Source: a virus
Direction: 5' to 3' (one strand)
Length of the DNA stretch: 27,015 nt
IMG/VR virus record: IMGVR_UViG_3300036861_000368
Span: 1 to 27,015 of that record
Of this stretch, positions 2,518 through 13,380 are shown piece by piece. Every line of letters starts with the position of its first letter. The stretch's first letter is position 1. The translations under genes were made by a program, and so were the position numbers. Under the pieces are notes generated by a model, which saw only the letters and a list, made by a program, of their open reading frames with translations, searched no databases and was not told the origin of the DNA.

Positions 2518-2988
2518 TCACTCTTCGAATACGAGATACGTTTCTGCCTGCACGGAGGCCGGAAGCGCATCCTGGTGCTCCAGGTTGATAGCCGCAACGT
2601 TCGAGCCGCCGTCGGTCTGATCGAACTCACGCCCCGGGGCCGCGACCCAGATCATCCCGCTCACGTTCGGGACCATCCAGCGATGCAGCCGGTTGCCAAC
2701 GAGCGTTCCTTCGACGGTGACATTGACCAGGCCGGCCGTCTGGAGAGTGCCACCGAGGTCGCTCTGGAGCTTTTCGGGGGTCTGGCTGGTCGCCGTTGGC
2801 AGCGCCGTTCCGGTGCGCTTGATGGCCCATCGTACGGGCGCCGCGGTCGAGTTGGGCGCCGCATTGCAGCTGATCCCGATCTCCGTCACCTGGATCGTCA
2901 CGCCAGCGATCGGGTTGAGCGCGACGGTGGTGCGCGCGGTCTCTGCCGCGGCCGATTCGAAGCTTACGATCCCTGCAGGTCTTAGCAT
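2518..2988 (-). CDS. Beta-rich structural protein of tail-tip region
   Basis: A 156-residue protein from the ATG at 2988, chosen because GGAG lies about six bases upstream; an ATG four codons earlier (3000) has no ribosome site. The sequence alternates beta strands and Gly/Thr/Ala turns (GVTIQVTEIGIS, APVRWAIKRTGT, VNVTVEGTLVGN, GMIWVAAPGREF), the pattern of small jelly-roll proteins seen in phage tails and decoration proteins. It has no signal peptide. It lies between two other unrecognised tail-tip genes in the same operon and is followed within ten bases by the next start. Probable virion component; exact role unknown. Confidence 0.6.
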   Translation of the reverse strand: MLRPAGIVSFESAAAETARTTVALNPIAGVTIQVTEIGISCNAAPNSTAAPVRWAIKRTGTALPTATSQTPEKLQSDLGGTLQTAGLVNVTVEGTLVGNRLHRWMVPNVSGMIWVAAPGREFDQTDGGSNVAAINLEHQDALPASVQAETYLVFEE

Positions 2989-3013
2989 GACGATCTCCAT
3001 TGCTTGGTTGGCA

Positions 3014-3457
3014 CTACCATCTCCCAGCGGCGATTGATGGCTTCATGGGCGCCAGGGCGGCCGTCACCCAGACCGTGTCAATCCGGATGCCGATGTTCTT
3101 GTCCCCGAGGTTCGCATCCTGATGCTTCTCCAGGAGGACCTCGCGATAGGTGGTGCCGCCGTCGAGGGAGAGTTCGATCAGATAGTCGTCGTCCTCGGAC
3201 GGGTTGAGCACGGAGTCATTCAGTTCCGTCTCGCTCGCCGATGGCGTGATGAGCTCGAGCAGGATGTGGCAGCGCCCGCGGTAGCCGTAGCGCGTCTTCG
3301 TCAGGCGCCGGTCGAGCATCTCGGAGAACAGGAACTCCGGCTCCCAGGTGGGCTGGAACACGACGAGCCACTGGTAGGCGCTGATGTCGACGACGTAGGG
3401 GTTGCCCGCCGGCGGGGTGATCCGGAACTTTGGGGTCCAGCCGTGCCCGAGCGCCAT
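3014..3457 (-). CDS. Hypothetical tail-tip operon protein
   Basis: A 147-residue protein I do not recognise. It starts at ATG 3457 with only a weak ribosome site and ends with TAG 13 bases before the next ATG. The sequence has several aromatic-rich beta segments (YQWLVVFQPTWEPEFLF, RGRCHILLELIT) followed by an acidic loop (NPSEDDDYLIEL) and a DGGTTYREVLLEK strand, suggesting a beta-sandwich. The 90 bases upstream (3458-3547) hold no gene; they contain a small GGTTG/CAACC inverted repeat but no convincing promoter. By position it is likely a tail-tip or appendage protein. Confidence 0.55.
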   Translation of the reverse strand: MALGHGWTPKFRITPPAGNPYVVDISAYQWLVVFQPTWEPEFLFSEMLDRRLTKTRYGYRGRCHILLELITPSASETELNDSVLNPSEDDDYLIELSLDGGTTYREVLLEKHQDANLGDKNIGIRIDTVWVTAALAPMKPSIAAGRW

Positions 3458-3547
3458 CGGAATCGTGGACCTGGTTGCGGGGCCACAACCCCCGGTTAAC
3501 TTGGCGCCGGCGCGCTGATCAGGCGAGTCGGTGTACTACCAGAGATT

Positions 3548-3841
3548 CTACGTTACCCAGGACGGATCCGCGCCCGGGCCGTTCGTCTGGAGCTTCTGTC
3601 CAGCGCTCCCGGCTCCCAGGCGCTGCCAGCCGTCGACACCGCGATACATGAGATCCCCCTGAACTTCGTCGCTGAACCCGGGGCGCAGCTCGATCCGGTT
3701 CTGCTCAGGAATGACGGTGATCTGCACCCCCGGGAAGGCGATGAGCTGCACGTCACCCTTGAGCGTTATTCCGGACTGCGGTAGCCCGAAGCTCCCGCTT
3801 CCCCCGCCACCGCCAGGATCGCCCGGGTTGATCTTGGGCAT
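3548..3841 (-). CDS. Small tail-fibre-like protein
   Basis: A 97-residue protein. After a Gly-rich leader (GDPGGGGGSGSFG) it has a short beta module and ends in a segment of the form GDLMYRG-DGWQRLGAG-AGQKLQTNG-PSW. That segment matches a motif widely repeated in tail-fibre and appendage proteins (GDLLY..., W..L..G..GQvL, PsW). Here one copy forms the C-terminus. The ATG at 3841 shares a TGATG junction with the stop of the large upstream tail gene, so the two are translationally coupled. It is probably a small fibre or linker at the tail tip. The motif is recognised by eye; trimerisation is inferred. Confidence 0.65.
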   Translation of the reverse strand: MPKINPGDPGGGGGSGSFGLPQSGITLKGDVQLIAFPGVQITVIPEQNRIELRPGFSDEVQGDLMYRGVDGWQRLGAGSAGQKLQTNGPGADPSWVT

Positions 3842-6123
3842 CAGGCTGCATCCTCGAGGAACTTTACCGAGACCTCTTCGGCCCCCAGGTCGTGATCGGA
3901 CTCGTACACCATCCAACGGGCCCCGTCGATCATCACTCTGTCGAGCGGCCGGTAGATCCTCCCGTCGCTGTCCTTGACGGTGGTCTCGATCAGCGCCCGC
4001 TTCTTGTTGTAGAAGTCGATGAAGCTGTCGGCGATCGCCTGCGCATAGGCGGCGTTGGGGATGAACGGCGAGCTGAGGCTGACGCCGCTCGAGGAGAAGT
4101 TCTTGTCCCCGGCGATGGCGGTGCTCCCGATCGTGGCCGACACCTCAACGTACTGCGCGACGTTCTCCCAGAGCAGGTCGTCGGTGCGTTCCTTGATCCG
4201 GTCGGTAATGTCGATCACGTTCCCGGCGTCGAACAGGTCGCGCGCTACGAAGTGCCCGGCCCCCTCGTCATCGATCCAGAACACGGCGTTGACAAGGGTG
4301 GCCAGATCCCGGAGCGCCTCGGCCACGCTCTTGCCGCCGAAGTCGGCATAGTCGATGACGCCGGCGAGCTGCTGGGAGGCCACCATCCAGTTCCGGCCAG
4401 CGCCCGGGTTGCCGCCCTTATAGCTGAAGATCCGGTACTGCTCCTTCACCCGGCCCCCATGGAGGCGGGTGTTGATCGAGCCATCGACGATCTTGTTGGC
4501 CCGATAGGTCAGGAATTCATCGCCCGTTCGGACGAACTGGATGCCTTGGTCATGGCTGATGAGGCCCACCAGGAAGCCGTTCAGATAGCGAATCGAGCGT
4601 GTCGGATAAATGTAGCCCTCGACGGAGCTTTCGCTCCGGACCAAGCAGCGCGGAAAGGGGCGCTTCCAGAGGCGCGTGGTCCCCCGGAAGGCGCAGATTT
4701 CAAACACCGGTCCTGTCGAGGGGATGGAGCGCAGGCAGAGGGCATAGTCGTACTCCGGGATGTAGATGAATCCGGCGTAGTGGCTGCCATCGACGTCCTC
4801 GCCCTGCAGGAGCGACGTGAAGGTGCCGCCCGCGATGTCGTAGTACTGCGAATACCGACTTCCGTCGTCGTACTCCCACCAGCAATAGAGCGCGTTTCGG
4901 ACCGGGTCGAACTCAAGGCCACGCGAAGTCTGGGTGCTCAGTTCCTTCGTGCCTGAATCGGGAAGATCAACGACTCCGGTCGTCGCACCCCAAGTGATCC
5001 CGTCACTCGTGGTCTTTTTCGAAATCTTCTCGGGCTCGGCCAGTTCATCAATGTAGTAACCTGTAAGAGGGGTCGATCCCGCGCCTCCATTGAAATCCCA
5101 GCCGTCACCATAACCCTCAGAGAGATTGCCGCCTCCGATGCCCGTTGGCGCTCGCAACAGGATCACGGGCTGTGCATGTCCTTGTCGGAAGTAGCGCGAC
5201 CAATCTACCCAGGCGCGTTCAGTCCCATCCTCGAGTACCCATGCATCTTCGGGGTTCACCTGATAATAGGTACCCGTATCGTTGACCGTGATGTAGCAAC
5301 GGCCATTCGCTTCTTGGGCTGCCGCCCCCTGGAACTGATTGACCACGAGCCCCTGCGGATTCACGGGCGCGGGCGCGGGGTACTTGAAGGCGCTCCCGGA
5401 CAGGCGGTACTCGGCCACCGGGATGGTCGCCGCGGCGAAAAGCGCCCGCACCAGGAACTCGATCCCCCGGTAGCGGTAGTAGGGCGTGGCCACGGTGATG
5501 ATGCTCAGGTTCGCCGGAGGGGTGCCGCCCCCGTACCCGTTCACGGAGCCGGCCTCGATCTCGACCGACATCGCCGAGATCACCCGCTTGACCACGTAGT
5601 CCTCGGCGGCCGTCTCCGAGGTTATGTGCAGCGTGTCCCCGGGCAAGATGCCGGTCGTATCGTTCAGCGTCAGCGTGGTGTTCCCTGGGTTGATCCCGGC
5701 GGTCGGGTAGATCGCGGCAGCGAAGGTGCGCTGCACGCCCTCGGCGCTCGTGTCCTGGAGGTGCCTGGTCAGGCCGTAGGCGGTAATCTCCACCTCGCGC
5801 GCCTTCCGGTCGAACTTGATGGACCCCGCCCCTAGGAGGATCCCCCAGAACTGGATCTCGTTCCGGCGGAAGAGCCGGAGCTGCCAGCGGTCGGTCGGGC
5901 CGAAGAAGGCGAACAGGTCGTCGAAGAAGGCGCGCACGTTCCGGAACTTCAGTGTGGCATCCCCAGTCTTGAAGGATAGGAGGTCGCGCTCGACGGCGCG
6001 GTTGATGGAGCCCAGGCCGTCGAGCTTCGCGTGCTCGGTGACGTCGAGAGGAGCCGGTAGCGGCCCCGGCGCGCCCGGTTTGTACTGAAGGATCTCGACC
6101 CGGAAGTCCAGATTGTTCGGCAT
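3841..6123 (-). CDS. Large tail-tip / baseplate-hub-like protein
   Basis: A 760-residue protein directly downstream of the tape measure, the usual place of the distal tail and hub proteins. Residues 1-135 resemble a hub or distal-tail N-domain (LDFRVEILQY, RNVRAFFDDLFAFFGPTD, WGILLGAGSIKFDRKAREV). Residues about 140-210 form a small beta domain; about 370-560 are rich in WWEYDDGSRYSQYYD and IYIPEYDYALCL-type strands that suggest a propeller-like insertion; about 600-640 (SVAEALRDLATLVNAVFWIDDE) returns to hub-like sequence. Bases around 4970-5340 look less GC-rich than their surroundings. Role in tail-tip assembly or host contact is inferred from position and domain feel; no enzymatic motif was seen. 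Confidence 0.6.
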   Translation of the reverse strand: MPNNLDFRVEILQYKPGAPGPLPAPLDVTEHAKLDGLGSINRAVERDLLSFKTGDATLKFRNVRAFFDDLFAFFGPTDRWQLRLFRRNEIQFWGILLGAGSIKFDRKAREVEITAYGLTRHLQDTSAEGVQRTFAAAIYPTAGINPGNTTLTLNDTTGILPGDTLHITSETAAEDYVVKRVISAMSVEIEAGSVNGYGGGTPPANLSIITVATPYYRYRGIEFLVRALFAAATIPVAEYRLSGSAFKYPAPAPVNPQGLVVNQFQGAAAQEANGRCYITVNDTGTYYQVNPEDAWVLEDGTERAWVDWSRYFRQGHAQPVILLRAPTGIGGGNLSEGYGDGWDFNGGAGSTPLTGYYIDELAEPEKISKKTTSDGITWGATTGVVDLPDSGTKELSTQTSRGLEFDPVRNALYCWWEYDDGSRYSQYYDIAGGTFTSLLQGEDVDGSHYAGFIYIPEYDYALCLRSIPSTGPVFEICAFRGTTRLWKRPFPRCLVRSESSVEGYIYPTRSIRYLNGFLVGLISHDQGIQFVRTGDEFLTYRANKIVDGSINTRLHGGRVKEQYRIFSYKGGNPGAGRNWMVASQQLAGVIDYADFGGKSVAEALRDLATLVNAVFWIDDEGAGHFVARDLFDAGNVIDITDRIKERTDDLLWENVAQYVEVSATIGSTAIAGDKNFSSSGVSLSSPFIPNAAYAQAIADSFIDFYNKKRALIETTVKDSDGRIYRPLDRVMIDGARWMVYESDHDLGAEEVSVKFLEDAA

Positions 6124-6124
6124 C

Positions 6125-7765
6125 TCAGATCGAGCTCCGGCGCTCGGCGCGGTCCGCCGCGGTCATCTCCCGTTGCAACCACCGGCGCAGTTCCGTCTTC
6201 GAACCGACAACGCCACTGATGGGGCCTATGTTCACCCCGCGGTTGATCGTCGTCCTATGGTAATTGTTGGTGACGCCGCCGCCACCTCTGCCGCTCATGC
6301 CGATCTCAAACCCTTCACCGAAATGCCGCAGGAAATCCGCCGCACTTCTCCGGCCCAGCTTATTGGCGAGCATGTCATTGAAGGGATCGTCAAAGCCGAC
6401 TTCCTGCTCGCGAATCCTCTGTACGTTTGCCAGCCCTTGGGCGATCACGGCCGCCATGAGTGCATAGTTGTAGGGCGGCGGGGCGCTCCTGAGGGCAACG
6501 TTGGCTGCTGCCCATGTGTCGGCGATCGCGGCGGCTATGTTGATAGCCTTGTTTTTGGTAAACGCTCCAACGAGGGTCGTAATCGCCTGCGTCCAGAGCT
6601 GCGCGATGCTCGCTGCTTCCGCTTTTCTGGCGCGGATTCTTTCGTTAATAAGCTTGAGCTCGGCATCCGTGAGAAGGCGACTTTCCCGGAGACGCTTGAG
6701 TTCAGCGAGCGTGATCTGCTCGTTGGCTAATTTCGCCGCGATAACCTCGCGCATGCGGGCCTCGTTCTCGGCCTCGATTTGCAAGATCCGCTCGGCGGAG
6801 GTCTGAATATCCTGCTCGCGCCTCTTCCTTGATTCGATCCGGTCCTTATTCTCTTGCTGCTGCAGCCGGGCACTCTCGGCCCTTAGGTCCCTGCTCAATT
6901 GGAGCTGATCGGCGAGCTCCTGATTCCTTTTGCGAGTTGCCTCTGCAGCGTCGTGCTCCGCTTTCCTGGATTTCTCCATGGCATCGGCGCGTTGTAGATC
7001 GGCGACCGCACCATTGACAATGGCCTCATTCAGTTCATCGAGACGCGCCTTCTCCTGTTTGATCTCGGCTTCGAGGATCGCCGCCTGCGCGGCCCATCTC
7101 GCCGCCGCCTGCTGGCTTGTATCCTGTACCCCGATCAATCGCTGCCAGCTCCAATGGGAGCCGCTGATCGTCTCCATCAGAGTCTTGTACTGGCGTTCGT
7201 GCTCGGCTATTTTGTGCGACAGCTCCAGGGCTTCAAGGCGCTGCTGCGCGGCGACGAGCTGCAGGACTGCCGCGTATTGCTCTCGAATCGCTCGTGAGGC
7301 GCTATCGACCTTTTCGATGTACTCCTTGAGTTGAGGGAGCTCGCTCGCCAGCTCCTGGGCGATCCCCTTATGGATGGCCTCGATGTCCTCGGCCGTGACC
7401 CCCCATTCCTTCAGCTTTGGGAGTAGCAGGGCGAGAGCTGCGACAAGGGCTGCGGCGCTGACACCCACCAGACCAGCGGAGCCGCTGAGCATGTTCATCG
7501 CCAGTCCGGCGGCCTTTGCAACTTCTCCAGACGCCCCCGTGACCCCGATGTTCATCAGGAGGACCCGGGTCATGTCCGCGACCGCGCCCCGGCTTCCACC
7601 CAGCTCCTTCGTGAGGCCCTTGGTCTTCTCCCCTAGATTCCCGACCGCTGGCGCTGCACCTGTAGCGGTGGTCCCAAGTCCGCGCAACTGCGCCTGAGCA
7701 TCCTCGAACCCTTTGCTGTTGAGGAGGGCGGTGATCAGGATCTTCAGGTCGAGTTCTTCACCCAT
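6125..7765 (-). CDS. Tail tape measure protein
   Basis: A 546-residue protein with the composition of a tape measure. It has an N-terminal region starting ELDLKILITALLNSKGF, a hydrophobic Ala/Leu stretch near residues 95-115, a long charged coiled coil (about 120-370, rich in Glu, Arg, Lys and Gln with few prolines), a second hydrophobic region near 385-440, and a Gly-rich C-terminus (MSGRGGGGVTNNY). These proteins set siphovirus tail length and enter the host envelope during DNA delivery. At roughly 0.15 nm per residue this predicts a short tail of about 80 nm (inference). Its ribosome site is weak, and it is separated from the tail chaperone by an opposite-strand cassette, which is unusual. 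Confidence 0.85.
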   Translation of the reverse strand: MGEELDLKILITALLNSKGFEDAQAQLRGLGTTATGAAPAVGNLGEKTKGLTKELGGSRGAVADMTRVLLMNIGVTGASGEVAKAAGLAMNMLSGSAGLVGVSAAALVAALALLLPKLKEWGVTAEDIEAIHKGIAQELASELPQLKEYIEKVDSASRAIREQYAAVLQLVAAQQRLEALELSHKIAEHERQYKTLMETISGSHWSWQRLIGVQDTSQQAAARWAAQAAILEAEIKQEKARLDELNEAIVNGAVADLQRADAMEKSRKAEHDAAEATRKRNQELADQLQLSRDLRAESARLQQQENKDRIESRKRREQDIQTSAERILQIEAENEARMREVIAAKLANEQITLAELKRLRESRLLTDAELKLINERIRARKAEAASIAQLWTQAITTLVGAFTKNKAINIAAAIADTWAAANVALRSAPPPYNYALMAAVIAQGLANVQRIREQEVGFDDPFNDMLANKLGRRSAADFLRHFGEGFEIGMSGRGGGGVTNNYHRTTINRGVNIGPISGVVGSKTELRRWLQREMTAADRAERRSSI

Positions 7766-7777
7766 GGCCTAGACCAC

Positions 7778-7806
7778 TTGACAGAGGCCCGGTTCGGGCG
7801 TATATG
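7778..7806 (+). promoter_or_regulatory. Sigma70-like promoter of the plus-strand cassette
   Basis: TTGACA (7778-7783), a 17-base spacer and TATATG (7801-7806). The -35 box is a perfect consensus and the -10 matches four of six positions. Transcription would start near 7812-7815, at or within about three bases of the ATG at 7815, so the mRNA would be leaderless or nearly so. It points away from the tape measure gene and into the three plus-strand genes. Confidence 0.6.
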
Positions 7807-7814
7807 GGGCGGTC

Positions 7815-8051
7815 ATGAGCGAGACCGCCGCTGAATACGAGGCGCGGCAGAAGGCGAACAGGTCGGAGGAATCGGGCATCCTGCGCATGCAACGGGAAGC
7901 CGTGGCTCGCGCAGAGGCGGAAAGAGGTGCTCGGGGCAGATCCGGTCTGGGCTTCTGGCGCCTGGTCTGGGTCGTGGCGCTCGGGATTCTCCTGGCGCAG
8001 GGGATCGCCGCGGTTATCCTGGCGGTAGCCCGGGCTGTGACCGGATCGTGA
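7815..8051 (+). CDS. Small single-span membrane protein (moron cassette)
   Basis: A 78-residue protein with a charged N-terminal half (about residues 1-42, many Glu, Arg and Ala, probably helical) and one clear membrane segment at about residues 48-72 (FWRLVWVVALGILLAQGIAA). By charge the N-terminus is probably cytoplasmic. It is the first gene of a plus-strand cassette in an otherwise minus-strand tail module and starts a few bases after the predicted promoter, with no Shine-Dalgarno. Its stop overlaps the next start (GTGA). A holin or spanin role was considered, but no lysozyme or partner is nearby; an envelope-associated accessory protein acting with the beta-barrel gene is more likely. 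No family recognised. Confidence 0.6.
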   Translation: MSETAAEYEARQKANRSEESGILRMQREAVARAEAERGARGRSGLGFWRLVWVVALGILLAQGIAAVILAVARAVTGS

Positions 8052-8548
8052 GGGCCGCCCGCGTTCTCTCCGTCCTGGCCGTTCTCTCCCTCTGTGCTCC
8101 GTCGCTCCATGCCGCGCCCGAGTGGCACCACACAGCCTTTTCCCTGGCATTCGTACACAACGACATCGACGGAATCGACGACACCCGCAGCCTCGACGGA
8201 GAGGCCATGTTCCGCGTTCAACATGGGAGCATCGGCATTGCCGCGGCTTTCAACAAGACGGACCTGGTCAACGGCGATTCGGTGACGACGGTCGGGGTCG
8301 GTGCCCTCTATGAGTACACCGACACCTCGAAGGATGTCTCCCCCTTGTTCGGAATCGGAATCATCCGCTGGGTCGATGAGGCCATGTTCGTCTATGACTG
8401 GAAGGCGTCGGTGCGCCTGGGCTTCACCGCCGGGAAGGGTCCGGTCTTCGCGGAGTTGTATGGATCGTGGGGCCGCTACTTCGGGCCGCGTGACCTGGAC
8501 CCGACCGATCTCAGGGAGCTCTTCCTCGGCGTGGGCTTCCGGAAGTAG
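8048..8548 (+). CDS. Outer-membrane beta-barrel protein with signal peptide
   Basis: A 166-residue protein with a typical signal peptide: basic MRAAR, a hydrophobic LSVLAVLSLCA core and a probable cleavage near SLHA/AP (residues 20-24). The mature part alternates polar and hydrophobic residues in strands of barrel length (TAFSLAFVHND, GEAMFRVQHGSIGIAAAF, TTVGVGALYEYTD, ASVRLGFTAGKGPVFAELYGSWG, ELFLGVGFRK) joined by Asp/Gly turns, consistent with a small barrel of about eight strands. The GTG start at 8048 overlaps the previous stop. Such genes are host-type cargo in phages and can change surface receptors or block superinfection; that role is inferred. The last residues are GFRK rather than the usual terminal aromatic. 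Confidence 0.65.
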   Translation: MRAARVLSVLAVLSLCAPSLHAAPEWHHTAFSLAFVHNDIDGIDDTRSLDGEAMFRVQHGSIGIAAAFNKTDLVNGDSVTTVGVGALYEYTDTSKDVSPLFGIGIIRWVDEAMFVYDWKASVRLGFTAGKGPVFAELYGSWGRYFGPRDLDPTDLRELFLGVGFRK

Positions 8549-8564
8549 TGCGAGGACCGCGACG

Positions 8565-8744
8565 ATGCCCACCAAGGACCCCGCAAAGATCGCCGGGATG
8601 GTGTACCTGGTGAAGATGGGGGCGATGGATGTCGGGGTCGTGGAGTGCCCCGGGCTTACGGCTGAAGAGGTCCGCATCGTCGAAGCCTTCATCGAGCGCC
8701 TTCGCAAGGAAGAGCCCCAGATCGCCGGCAAGCCCGAGCCCTAG
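8565..8744 (+). CDS. Small acidic/basic helical protein, third cassette gene
   Basis: A 59-residue protein starting at ATG 8565 with GAGGA eight bases upstream, 16 bases after the beta-barrel gene. It contains a short strand-like segment (GMVYLVKMGAMDVGVVECPG) and a helix (LTAEEVRIVEAFIERLRKEE). No membrane segment or signal is seen. Its last four bases overlap, tail to tail, the end of the minus-strand tail chaperone gene at 8741, so the cassette is fitted tightly into the late operon. I see no hairpin with a T-tract after it. The family is not recognised. Confidence 0.55.
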   Translation: MPTKDPAKIAGMVYLVKMGAMDVGVVECPGLTAEEVRIVEAFIERLRKEEPQIAGKPEP

Positions 8745-9349
8745 TTGACGTAGACCTTCCCGCCGATGTTCCCCAGGCCATGGAGTGCTGTCGGCTCGGC
8801 CTCGGGGTCGAGGGTCGGGTCCTCGCGCATCTCGGCGTCCCGCGCCGCCTTCGCCCCTGCCGAGACGCAGTCACACAGGTCCAGGAAGTCCTGCATGGGC
8901 ATAGTCAGGACGTCCAGAGGGGTCAGGCTGTAGAGCTTGCAGAGTGCGGCGATGTCCATGACCAGGCCGCCTCCCTTCTTCACCCGCTCCCCGGTCCAGT
9001 CGATGAGCGCCAGCATGCGCGCCCAGCCGGGGTCGTTCTCGACCTCCCAGCTGGCCTCGATGACACGGGAGGCGTTGCGCTGCGAGTGCCACCGCCGGAA
9101 GAACCCCCGGGGCTGTCCGATGCAGATCAGATCGGCCAGGGCCGCCGTCGTCGCGGGATCGCCGAGGGCGAACTGAGCCTCGGCCTCGGTCGGCTTCCCG
9201 TCATGCTCCGCGGCGAACTCCAGGAGGCGGGACAGGCCGATCTTGACCGCCTCACGGAAGCCGCGGACGGTGATCCGCCCCACCGTCACCCGCTTGTAGG
9301 CCGGGAACGGCAGGAGCCGGAACAGGGTGACACGCTTCTCGTGCTGCAC
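8741..9349 (-). CDS. Tail assembly chaperone-like protein
   Basis: A 202-residue protein between the tail tube and tape measure genes, the conserved place of siphovirus tail chaperones. The N-terminal part begins with VTLFRLLPFPAYKRVTVGRI. The C-terminal part has a segment (YSLTPLDVLTMPMQDFLDLCD) typical of these helical proteins, which bind the tape measure while the tube polymerises. The GTG start at 9349 has a strong GGAGGGGG site. No clear slippery heptamer was found near the end, and the usual frameshifted second half is absent because the strand switches to the plus-strand cassette at 8744. Assignment rests mainly on position and helical pattern. Confidence 0.65.
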   Translation of the reverse strand: MQHEKRVTLFRLLPFPAYKRVTVGRITVRGFREAVKIGLSRLLEFAAEHDGKPTEAEAQFALGDPATTAALADLICIGQPRGFFRRWHSQRNASRVIEASWEVENDPGWARMLALIDWTGERVKKGGGLVMDIAALCKLYSLTPLDVLTMPMQDFLDLCDCVSAGAKAARDAEMREDPTLDPEAEPTALHGLGNIGGKVYVN

Positions 9350-10275: not shown

Positions 10276-10767
10276 TCAGTTCTTCCCGATCGCTTTGACC
10301 GAGAAGGTATAGCTCGGCGTGGTGCCGGCGATGAACCATTTCACCCGGACGTAATCCCCGAAGATCATGTATTTGGCGACGGACTTCACCCCTGAGCAGG
10401 CGGCGTCTGCGGCCAGGTCGACGAAGTCGCGGGCGTTGATCTCGCCGGCGGTCTCCGTGGCATCCCCGTCGGTCACCATGCCCAGCTCGAACGGCAGGTC
10501 GTACCAGTTGGTCCCCCCGTCGCTCGACGCCTGCAGGAACACGTCGAGCGTCTCGCCGGTGCCCGAACTGGCCGTGCAGTCGAAGAAGATGATGACCTCC
10601 TTGATGCCGCCGACATAGATGGCCCCGCTGTTCGAGGTCGCCGTCTGGGCGGATGAGGTCTGAAGCTCGAATCGGGTCGTGGCGCACCAGGCGGCCGGGG
10701 ACAGCGCCAGGACGGCGGCCAGCAGAAGCGCCAGGGCGGTCAGGCTGCGCGATCTCGTGAAAGTCAT
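10276..10767 (-). CDS. Signal-peptide-bearing beta protein in tail operon
   Basis: A 163-residue protein. Residues 1-29 are a textbook Sec signal (MTFTRSRSLTALALLLAAVL, then ALSPAAWCA), but the region has no lipobox. The mature part is a beta-sandwich of a type common near phage structural genes: SGAIYVGGIKEVIIFFDC, GETLDVFLQASSDGGTNWYD and GDYVRVKWFIAGTTPSYTF, the last recalling motifs of decoration and tail proteins. The start at 10767 forms an ATGA overlap with the tail terminator gene and has GGGGAGCC upstream, so the signal-encoding start is well supported. A virion protein would not normally be exported, so it may act in the host envelope, or the leader may have been acquired. Confidence 0.65.
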   Translation of the reverse strand: MTFTRSRSLTALALLLAAVLALSPAAWCATTRFELQTSSAQTATSNSGAIYVGGIKEVIIFFDCTASSGTGETLDVFLQASSDGGTNWYDLPFELGMVTDGDATETAGEINARDFVDLAADAACSGVKSVAKYMIFGDYVRVKWFIAGTTPSYTFSVKAIGKN

Positions 10768-12338: not shown

Positions 12339-12614
12339 CTATCGGCTCTTGCCCTTCGTCTTCACGGCCGCGGGCTTCATGGCACGGTCGATGGGTGATT
12401 CCTTGACGGCCTTCTCGTCAGGGGAGAGGACGGGCTGGCGTCGGCGCTCGATGTCCTCGGCAACTTCCTCCGCATGCGTCTTCGCGTCGTCCTTGACGAA
12501 CTCGGCCAGGCCGGCGTCGACCCACTTCTGGCAGAGGTCTGTGTCGTTCTCCTCAACCATCCCTTCGTGCCGCAGGCCGTCCAGTGGCTTGATCCAGCGA
12601 ATCTTCCTGCTCAT
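12339..12614 (-). CDS. Small hypothetical protein in head module
   Basis: A 91-residue charged protein of unknown family. The N-terminal half (KIRWIKPLDGLRHEGMV, then a helix around TDLCQKWVDAGLAEFV) resembles small phage proteins often found between capsid and connector genes; the C-terminal half is Lys/Glu-rich and likely disordered. Its ATG at 12614 overlaps the stop of the glycosyltransferase-like gene (ATGA), and it ends eight bases before the connector start. No membrane segment or catalytic motif is visible. Confidence 0.6.
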   Translation of the reverse strand: MSRKIRWIKPLDGLRHEGMVEENDTDLCQKWVDAGLAEFVKDDAKTHAEEVAEDIERRRQPVLSPDEKAVKESPIDRAMKPAAVKTKGKSR

Positions 12615-13324
12615 GCGACGTCCTCCTGTTCCGTGAGTCCCGGCAGGCCCCGCTCGACCACGGCACCGACGAAGCGGTTGATGTCCATCAGGTCGACGGT
12701 CTTCTCATGCCCGAAGACGATGCGCGGGTCGATGGTGACCCGGACCCCGAGCGCGTTCGCCTTGTGGCAGAAGTACATGTCCTCGCCTTCCTCGATCGCC
12801 TGGTCCTCCTCGCGCTTGACGGTCTTGAAGTATGGGGGCATCATCCGCTCCAGGAGCGCCCGCGAGACGCTCATGCAGCCGGCGCCCACCGCGTCCACCT
12901 GAAACGGCAGGACGCTGTCGGAGGAGGCCGTGACGTACTTCCCCGTGCGCAGGTCGGCGTGGTACATGACCGTGCAGATTTGCGGGACCCGCTTCTCGAG
13001 CTCCCGGTATCCGATCCAGCCGCAGGCGAGCCCGGACACGATGTCGGCCTTGTGCCCGAACAGGGCCCACCAGTTGGGCGGGGGGTTCATGTCGGCATCC
13101 CAGAACTGGAGCCGCTCCATGCGCTTGTCCTTGAGCGCCTGCATCACGCAGAAGTTCCGGGCGAAGTCCACCTCGCGCAGGCCTACCGGCTTGAAGGTGA
13201 CGTACTCGAAGGGATGATCCGGATCGCGCGACAGCTCGGCCGCGTTCTCCAGGGCGTGCAGGAGCGACACGGTGACGCGCCCGTCGTAGGATGGCACGCA
13301 AATCCAGATGACCCGCTTCGCCAT
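12611..13324 (-). CDS. GT-A fold glycosyltransferase-like protein
   Basis: A 237-residue protein starting at ATG 13324 with GGAGG four bases upstream. It opens with a nucleotide-binding-type strand (KRVIWICVPSYDG), continues with a helix (VDFARNFCVMQAL), then a strand ending in FWDADMNPPPNW; DAD at residues 76-78 fits the metal-binding DXD motif of GT-A (GT2-like) transferases. Later come AVGAGCMSVSRALLERM (about 144-161), EDMYFCHKANALG (181-193) and GHE (205-207), matching acceptor-site and metal-ligand positions of the fold. It would transfer a sugar from a nucleotide sugar; donor and acceptor are unknown. It lies directly after the capsid gene, so a virion protein is a possible acceptor (inference). 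Confidence 0.75.
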   Translation of the reverse strand: MAKRVIWICVPSYDGRVTVSLLHALENAAELSRDPDHPFEYVTFKPVGLREVDFARNFCVMQALKDKRMERLQFWDADMNPPPNWWALFGHKADIVSGLACGWIGYRELEKRVPQICTVMYHADLRTGKYVTASSDSVLPFQVDAVGAGCMSVSRALLERMMPPYFKTVKREEDQAIEEGEDMYFCHKANALGVRVTIDPRIVFGHEKTVDLMDINRFVGAVVERGLPGLTEQEDVA

Positions 13325-13341
13325 TTCGCCTCCGATACTGC

Positions 13342-13380
13342 GGGGAGGGCCAGCGGCCCAACAATCCACCGGCCCTCCCC
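13342..13380 (-). other. 10-bp GC-rich hairpin after the capsid gene
   Basis: A perfect 10-bp inverted repeat, GGGGAGGGCC/GGCCCTCCCC (13380-13371 and 13351-13342), with a 19-base loop, in the 73-base gap between the capsid stop and the next start. No T-tract follows on the minus strand, so it is not a standard intrinsic terminator. It may protect the 3' end of capsid mRNA or lower read-through into the glycosyltransferase gene. Confidence 0.6.

Follow-up and report, generated by a model that had tools for sequence, protein, structure and literature searches.

HK97 gp15 has been published as a superinfection-exclusion moron with a single transmembrane (TM) span (Cumby et al. 2012, as cited in PMC10883804). 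It is 62 residues long, and its gene lies between the tail chaperone gene and the tape measure protein (TMP) gene, alone, on the strand of the tail genes, and followed by an annotated terminator. In HK022, lambda, and N15, nothing lies between these two genes, which are contiguous. Other morons are annotated on the strand opposite to the tail operon. HK97 gp23 and HK022 Srb (gp23) are short genes of this kind, each a single gene flanked by tail genes I and J; neither an evident signal peptide nor an evident TM span was found in HK97 gp23. Lambda Lom is an exported outer-membrane protein encoded inside the tail gene region, on the strand of the tail genes and downstream of J. In Salmonella, prophage ST64B has a locus (STMMW_20121) that is antisense to the prophage lytic genes and has its own promoter, while STnc6030 of prophage BTP1 is an antisense RNA that targets structural genes and brings about exclusion (PMC7067206). 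Defence by an inner-membrane protein that works beside the TMP while the DNA enters has been documented for SNIPE (PMC13190303). Morons on the reverse strand are already known, as is a membrane moron in the chaperone-TMP slot, and it is the arrangement described below that is new.

The window, that is, the whole stretch of DNA analysed here, is a virus record of 27,015 bases. A codon-based gene call placed almost all of its genes on the minus strand, and those with Pfam or PHROG assignments include portal, capsid, head protease, terminase, TMP, replication, and recombination genes. The one weak plus-strand call, at 10367-10618, is probably a false one; a conserved signal-peptide gene occupies the opposite strand there. 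The putative tail assembly chaperone gene, which had no family match in Pfam or PHROGs, precedes the TMP gene in the direction of transcription. As listed in Table 1, the gap between them is filled by three plus-strand ORFs, which take up 930 bases. An earlier note on this DNA had described three genes running opposite to all others between the chaperone and TMP genes, and the coordinates and codon scores confirmed this layout.

Table 1. Features of the chaperone-TMP region of the window (codon scores are log-likelihoods per codon)
Feature	Coordinates	Strand	Evidence
TMP gene, flank	6125-7765	-	PHROG tape measure match, E 3.4e-8
Promoter-like site CTTGAC-N17-GTATAT (TTGACA-17-TATATG in the earlier note)	7777-7805	+	Top-scoring site of the window, both strands
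Gene for 78-aa single-TM protein	7815-8051	+	Codon score 0.14
Gene for 166-aa exported protein, GTG start	8048-8548	+	Codon score 0.23
Gene for 59-aa protein, GAGG ribosome-binding site upstream of ATG	8565-8744	+	Codon score 0.37
Putative tail assembly chaperone gene, flank	8741-9349	-	Named by position alone

The codon model was trained on eight minus-strand genes of the window, and the highest of the three scores belongs to the 59-aa ORF. The three ORFs are packed as in an operon. The start of the 166-aa gene overlaps the stop of the 78-aa gene as GTGA, and the stop codons of the 59-aa gene and the chaperone gene overlap tail to tail. The GC content of the cassette is 0.648 against 0.655, and its dinucleotide distance falls within the lowest tenth of the window. 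Since both measures equal those of the remaining phage, the cassette does not have the look of a recent import.

Is the slot also occupied in related phages? Relatives were sought through MTP, TMP, chaperone, and TM alignments. The scans of IMG/VR converged on two phages, and no additional relatives were found among the genome contigs searched. The first, G001 (IMGVR_UViG_3300036853_000089), has 37,564 bases and a tyrosine integrase, and it is probably complete because it has a terminal overlap of 127 bp. The second is G002 (IMGVR_UViG_3300046714_000721). The window TMP is 38-39% identical to the TMPs of the two phages, and the window chaperone is 37-46% identical to the proteins encoded at the corresponding place. 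In G002, the chaperone and TMP genes are 12 nt apart and the cassette is absent. The two genes, which the earlier note had called normally adjacent, are likewise contiguous in lambda, N15, and HK022. In G001, the gap holds one reverse-strand ORF encoding a single-TM protein, so the cassette is reduced to its TM gene. The slot is thus found in three states (empty, TM gene alone, and TM gene with the exported-protein gene and the 59-aa gene), which indicates a variable slot in which the membrane gene is the element that is conserved. As a separate observation, G002 has a plus-strand gene (L005:6162-6413) for an 83-aa lipoprotein-like product (MRSVVAVLVCALVAISVSGC...) between the major tail protein and chaperone genes, and this may be a distinct envelope moron close to the TMP gene.

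The membrane span claimed for one of the products was found in the 78-aa protein. It has one strong TM span (residues 53-71, Kyte-Doolittle 2.6) near the C-terminus, and its hydropathy suggests an inner-membrane location. The N-terminal half is charged and, by the positive-inside rule, is probably cytoplasmic. The G001 homologue (L002:5720-5923:-, 67 aa) is encoded in the same slot and in the same orientation, and the two proteins have the TM signature FWRLxxVVAxGILLxQ in common. Their Smith-Waterman score of 82 exceeds those of all 2000 shuffles that preserve the TM block (maximum 73). When the six frames were compared with G001, the plus frame was the best conserved (BLOSUM sum of 68 versus at most 43). 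The amino acid conservation of this protein and the coding signal in all three ORFs suggest that the products themselves are under selection. By these comparisons, the TM gene is the conserved part of the cassette and the gene for the barrel candidate is not. The stress that the title of the earlier note laid on a beta-barrel is therefore probably misplaced.

The 78-aa protein resembles HK97 gp15 in being a small single-TM protein encoded in the chaperone-TMP slot, and in both cases the slot is variable among relatives (for gp15, present in HK97 and absent in HK022). Both proteins consist of one TM span and a charged, helix-like part that is probably cytoplasmic, although the parts are in reverse order. 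In contrast to gp15, the window gene lies on the strand opposite to the tail genes and is accompanied by two further genes. Gp15 matches Pfam YebO, whereas the 78-aa protein has no YebO match, and BLASTP gave no alignment between the two. It is proposed here that the 78-aa protein may work like gp15, and it is not filed in the gp15 family. As for the other known systems, the cassette shares its orientation with HK97 gp23 and HK022 Srb, which differ in being single genes at another position in the tail operon. Independent transcription opposite to the late genes during lysogeny would be a likeness to ST64B STMMW_20121 and BTP1 STnc6030 (PMC7067206); in those cases, however, other genes at another place are involved, and STnc6030 acts as an RNA.

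The earlier note had assigned a signal peptide and barrel-like strands to the 166-aa protein. The first part stood, since inspection of the translation revealed a Sec signal peptide (MRAARVLSVLAVLSLCAPSLHA/APEW). The second was not demonstrated. The protein is rich in beta structure, and its last strand-like stretch is LFLGVGF, followed by RK. AlphaFold2 single-sequence models of the full-length and mature forms were all-beta, with about eight long strands, but at a pLDDT of 38 they are unusable. Foldseek searches with these models gave no significant match, and an outer-membrane barrel was absent among the matches listed. A home-made strand-alternation test was not significant (p 0.22), and the test itself failed to distinguish candidate barrels from the remaining proteins. 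No usable homologue was found in IMG/VR, phages, plasmids, Pfam, PHROGs, NCBIfam, PADLOC, or PDB sequences, no barrel family profile in Pfam, NCBIfam, or PHROG matched, and there was no match in G001 or G002. Like lambda Lom, the protein is exported and encoded inside a tail gene region, but no similarity to it was found in the phage collection and the strand and position of the two genes differ. An outer-membrane location is probable for the 166-aa protein, which is an unproven candidate for a small outer-membrane beta-barrel. The 59-aa protein is probably cytoplasmic. It had no family match in Pfam, PHROGs, NCBIfam, or further family searches, and a homologue was found nowhere among the collections searched.

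G001 encodes a barrel-like protein of its own at another locus. The product of L008:168-632 (+) has 154 residues and a signal peptide, and it weakly matches PF24653 (Phage_OMP) at an E value of 0.005, under the cut-off. A second small gene (L008:632-973, +) overlaps this gene, and the pair lies just upstream of the integrase gene. The idea that the 166-aa protein is this protein in a new location was dropped, as a single comparison gave an E value of 0.13. The two proteins differ, and the phage group may carry proteins of this sort.

The promoter-like site of the earlier note is present and is the best one in the window. TTGACA begins at 7778 and TATATG at 7801, with a spacing of 17 nt. The site matches the E. 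coli consensus at 10 of 12 positions; it is the sole such site in the window, while 0.27 are expected per shuffled window. A strict E. coli promoter scan rejects it, since the final T is missing. For Sinorhizobium meliloti, CTTGAC-N17-CTATAT has been reported as the sigma-70 consensus (PMC2873474). The site agrees with this alphaproteobacterial consensus at 11 of 12 positions, and a shuffled window is expected to contain 0.03 such sites. The alphaproteobacterial register is only a lead to the host, and portal similarity did not identify one because the portal matches are too distant. The -35 box overlaps the TMP gene leader and adjoins the TMP ribosome-binding region. Its complement, CTGTCAAG, is kept in G001, where the TM gene is present, and is missing in G002, where that gene is absent. 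The -35 stretch reads CTGTCAAGGGGTCCAG in G001 versus CTGTCAAGTGGTCTAG in the window, and TGTCAA is missing in G002, which has no cassette. No -10 box was recognisable in the G001 slot. With a motif well above chance in exactly the place where one is needed, the cassette is predicted to have its own promoter.

The predicted transcript start is around 7812-7813. This would leave a leader of 2-3 nt, in agreement with the claim of almost no 5' leader, and the mRNA would be nearly leaderless. Translation might instead begin at an internal ATG, at 7887. A scan for intrinsic terminators found none between 7000 and 9600, the stretch 3' of the cassette included, so the cassette transcript may run antisense into the chaperone gene. 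Conversely, the opposite orientation would make the late tail transcript antisense to the cassette. I infer both antisense effects from the anatomy of the locus.

What is the cassette for? The reading that I tentatively prefer, giving it slightly less than an even chance, is that the cassette is a three-gene moron operon expressed in the prophage, which makes envelope proteins and whose TM protein excludes other phages at the TMP step, with the late transcript lowering its expression. A promoter of its own would drive the operon, which lies opposite to the tail operon, and envelope proteins would be made in the lysogen. The small inner-membrane protein would most likely hinder the DNA entry of related phages at the passage of the TMP through the inner membrane, the step proposed for HK97 gp15. 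The exported protein would probably be located in the outer membrane and alter the surface or a receptor there. As the late tail transcript passes through the cassette in antisense, it would reduce the expression of the three genes. The earlier note had suggested surface modification or superinfection exclusion in the lysogen, switched off when the late operon is on, and this interpretation is supported in part, namely for a reverse-oriented accessory cassette with its own promoter-like site. TMP-directed superinfection exclusion is the leading guess for the TM protein, and this guess gains weight by analogy because gp15 occupies the same slot. The presence of extra genes between genes that are adjacent in G002, lambda, N15, and HK022 is what is expected of a moron. 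The cassette has neither a terminator of its own nor a deviant base composition. Deviant composition is a non-obligatory feature of morons. In favour of the moron-operon reading stand the codon usage of the three ORFs, the promoter motif, the co-located TM gene of the integrase-bearing G001, the empty slot of G002, and the precedents of HK97 gp15, SNIPE, the reverse-strand morons, and the ST64B locus. Against it, a homologue is known for just one of the three genes, the TM protein has no sequence similarity to gp15, neither a terminator nor a sign of recent import was found, G001 has no recognisable -10 box, and no integrase was found in the window record.

If this reading is true, small membrane genes have settled independently beside the TMP gene in HK97-like phages and in an uncultured siphophage-like group, on opposite strands. 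This would suggest that exclusion genes travel with the gene of the protein on which they act, and it would provide a simple position rule for finding new exclusion genes. It would also allow strand opposition to be tested as a switch between lysogeny and lysis.

Lysogenic conversion without exclusion is less likely but deserves some weight. Here, a Lom-like exported protein and its partners would change how the host adheres, how permeable it is, or how well it survives, and the location of the slot beside the TMP gene would be functionally meaningless. Lambda lom, an outer-membrane protein gene inside a tail region, and the different signal-peptide barrel-like protein beside the G001 integrase are consistent with this. 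However, the conserved gene of the slot is the TM gene rather than the gene for the exported protein, and the HK97 precedent in this slot is exclusion. A more elaborate version of the preferred exclusion reading is that the cassette encodes a two-membrane injection guard, in which an inner-membrane TMP blocker is combined with an outer-membrane protein acting on adsorption. The guard would be encoded beside and antisense to its target gene, and lytic antisense transcription would silence it while the tails of the phage itself form. I regard this version as unlikely.

It is improbable, again, that the RNA is the effector. A cassette transcript without a terminator would continue in antisense across the genes for the chaperone and the major tail protein and, in the manner of STnc6030, limit the expression of the tail genes of an incoming or induced phage. 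The lack of a terminator-like site fits this, and exclusion by an antisense RNA directed at structural genes has been published (PMC7067206). The coding signal in all three ORFs and the conservation of the TM protein at the amino acid level argue against it. A role in the lytic phase, in which the genes are active during infection and help lysis or block the re-adsorption of progeny, has an equally small chance. A TM protein and an exported protein are compatible with envelope disruption, and no integrase was found in the 27-kb window record, but the genes oppose the late operon and their promoter is of the host type. The reading that can safely be set aside as very improbable is that the plus-strand ORFs are artefacts and that a minus-strand ORF (7769-8731) is the real gene. 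This ORF extends over 320 codons in the frame of the chaperone gene past its TAG stop, fits the gap exactly, and stops just short of the TMP start. Its codon log-likelihood is -0.10 per codon whereas all three plus-strand ORFs are positive, and long antisense ORFs are common in the window (plus-strand reading frames of 354 to 768 aa face known minus-strand genes for structural or packaging proteins). Against G001, the plus frame is the best conserved one, and G002 has no gene there. The minus-strand ORF was thus rejected as a gene and is judged to be an antisense shadow.

Two further minus-strand genes of the window may be mentioned. A Sec signal-peptide gene (10276-10767) lies in the head-tail operon, two genes ahead of the tail tube gene; an exported product amid virion assembly genes is unusual. 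It has homologues in both relatives (L003:6122-6580, +, and L002 within ORF 2950-4050, +), and the C-terminus KA(I/V)GKN is common to them. Downstream of the capsid gene, the gene at 12611-13369 encodes a glycosyltransferase-like protein by a weak PHROG match (E 0.02), with a better match to an unknown PHROG. Its homologue in G002 (L005:1657-2373) is found in the same place.
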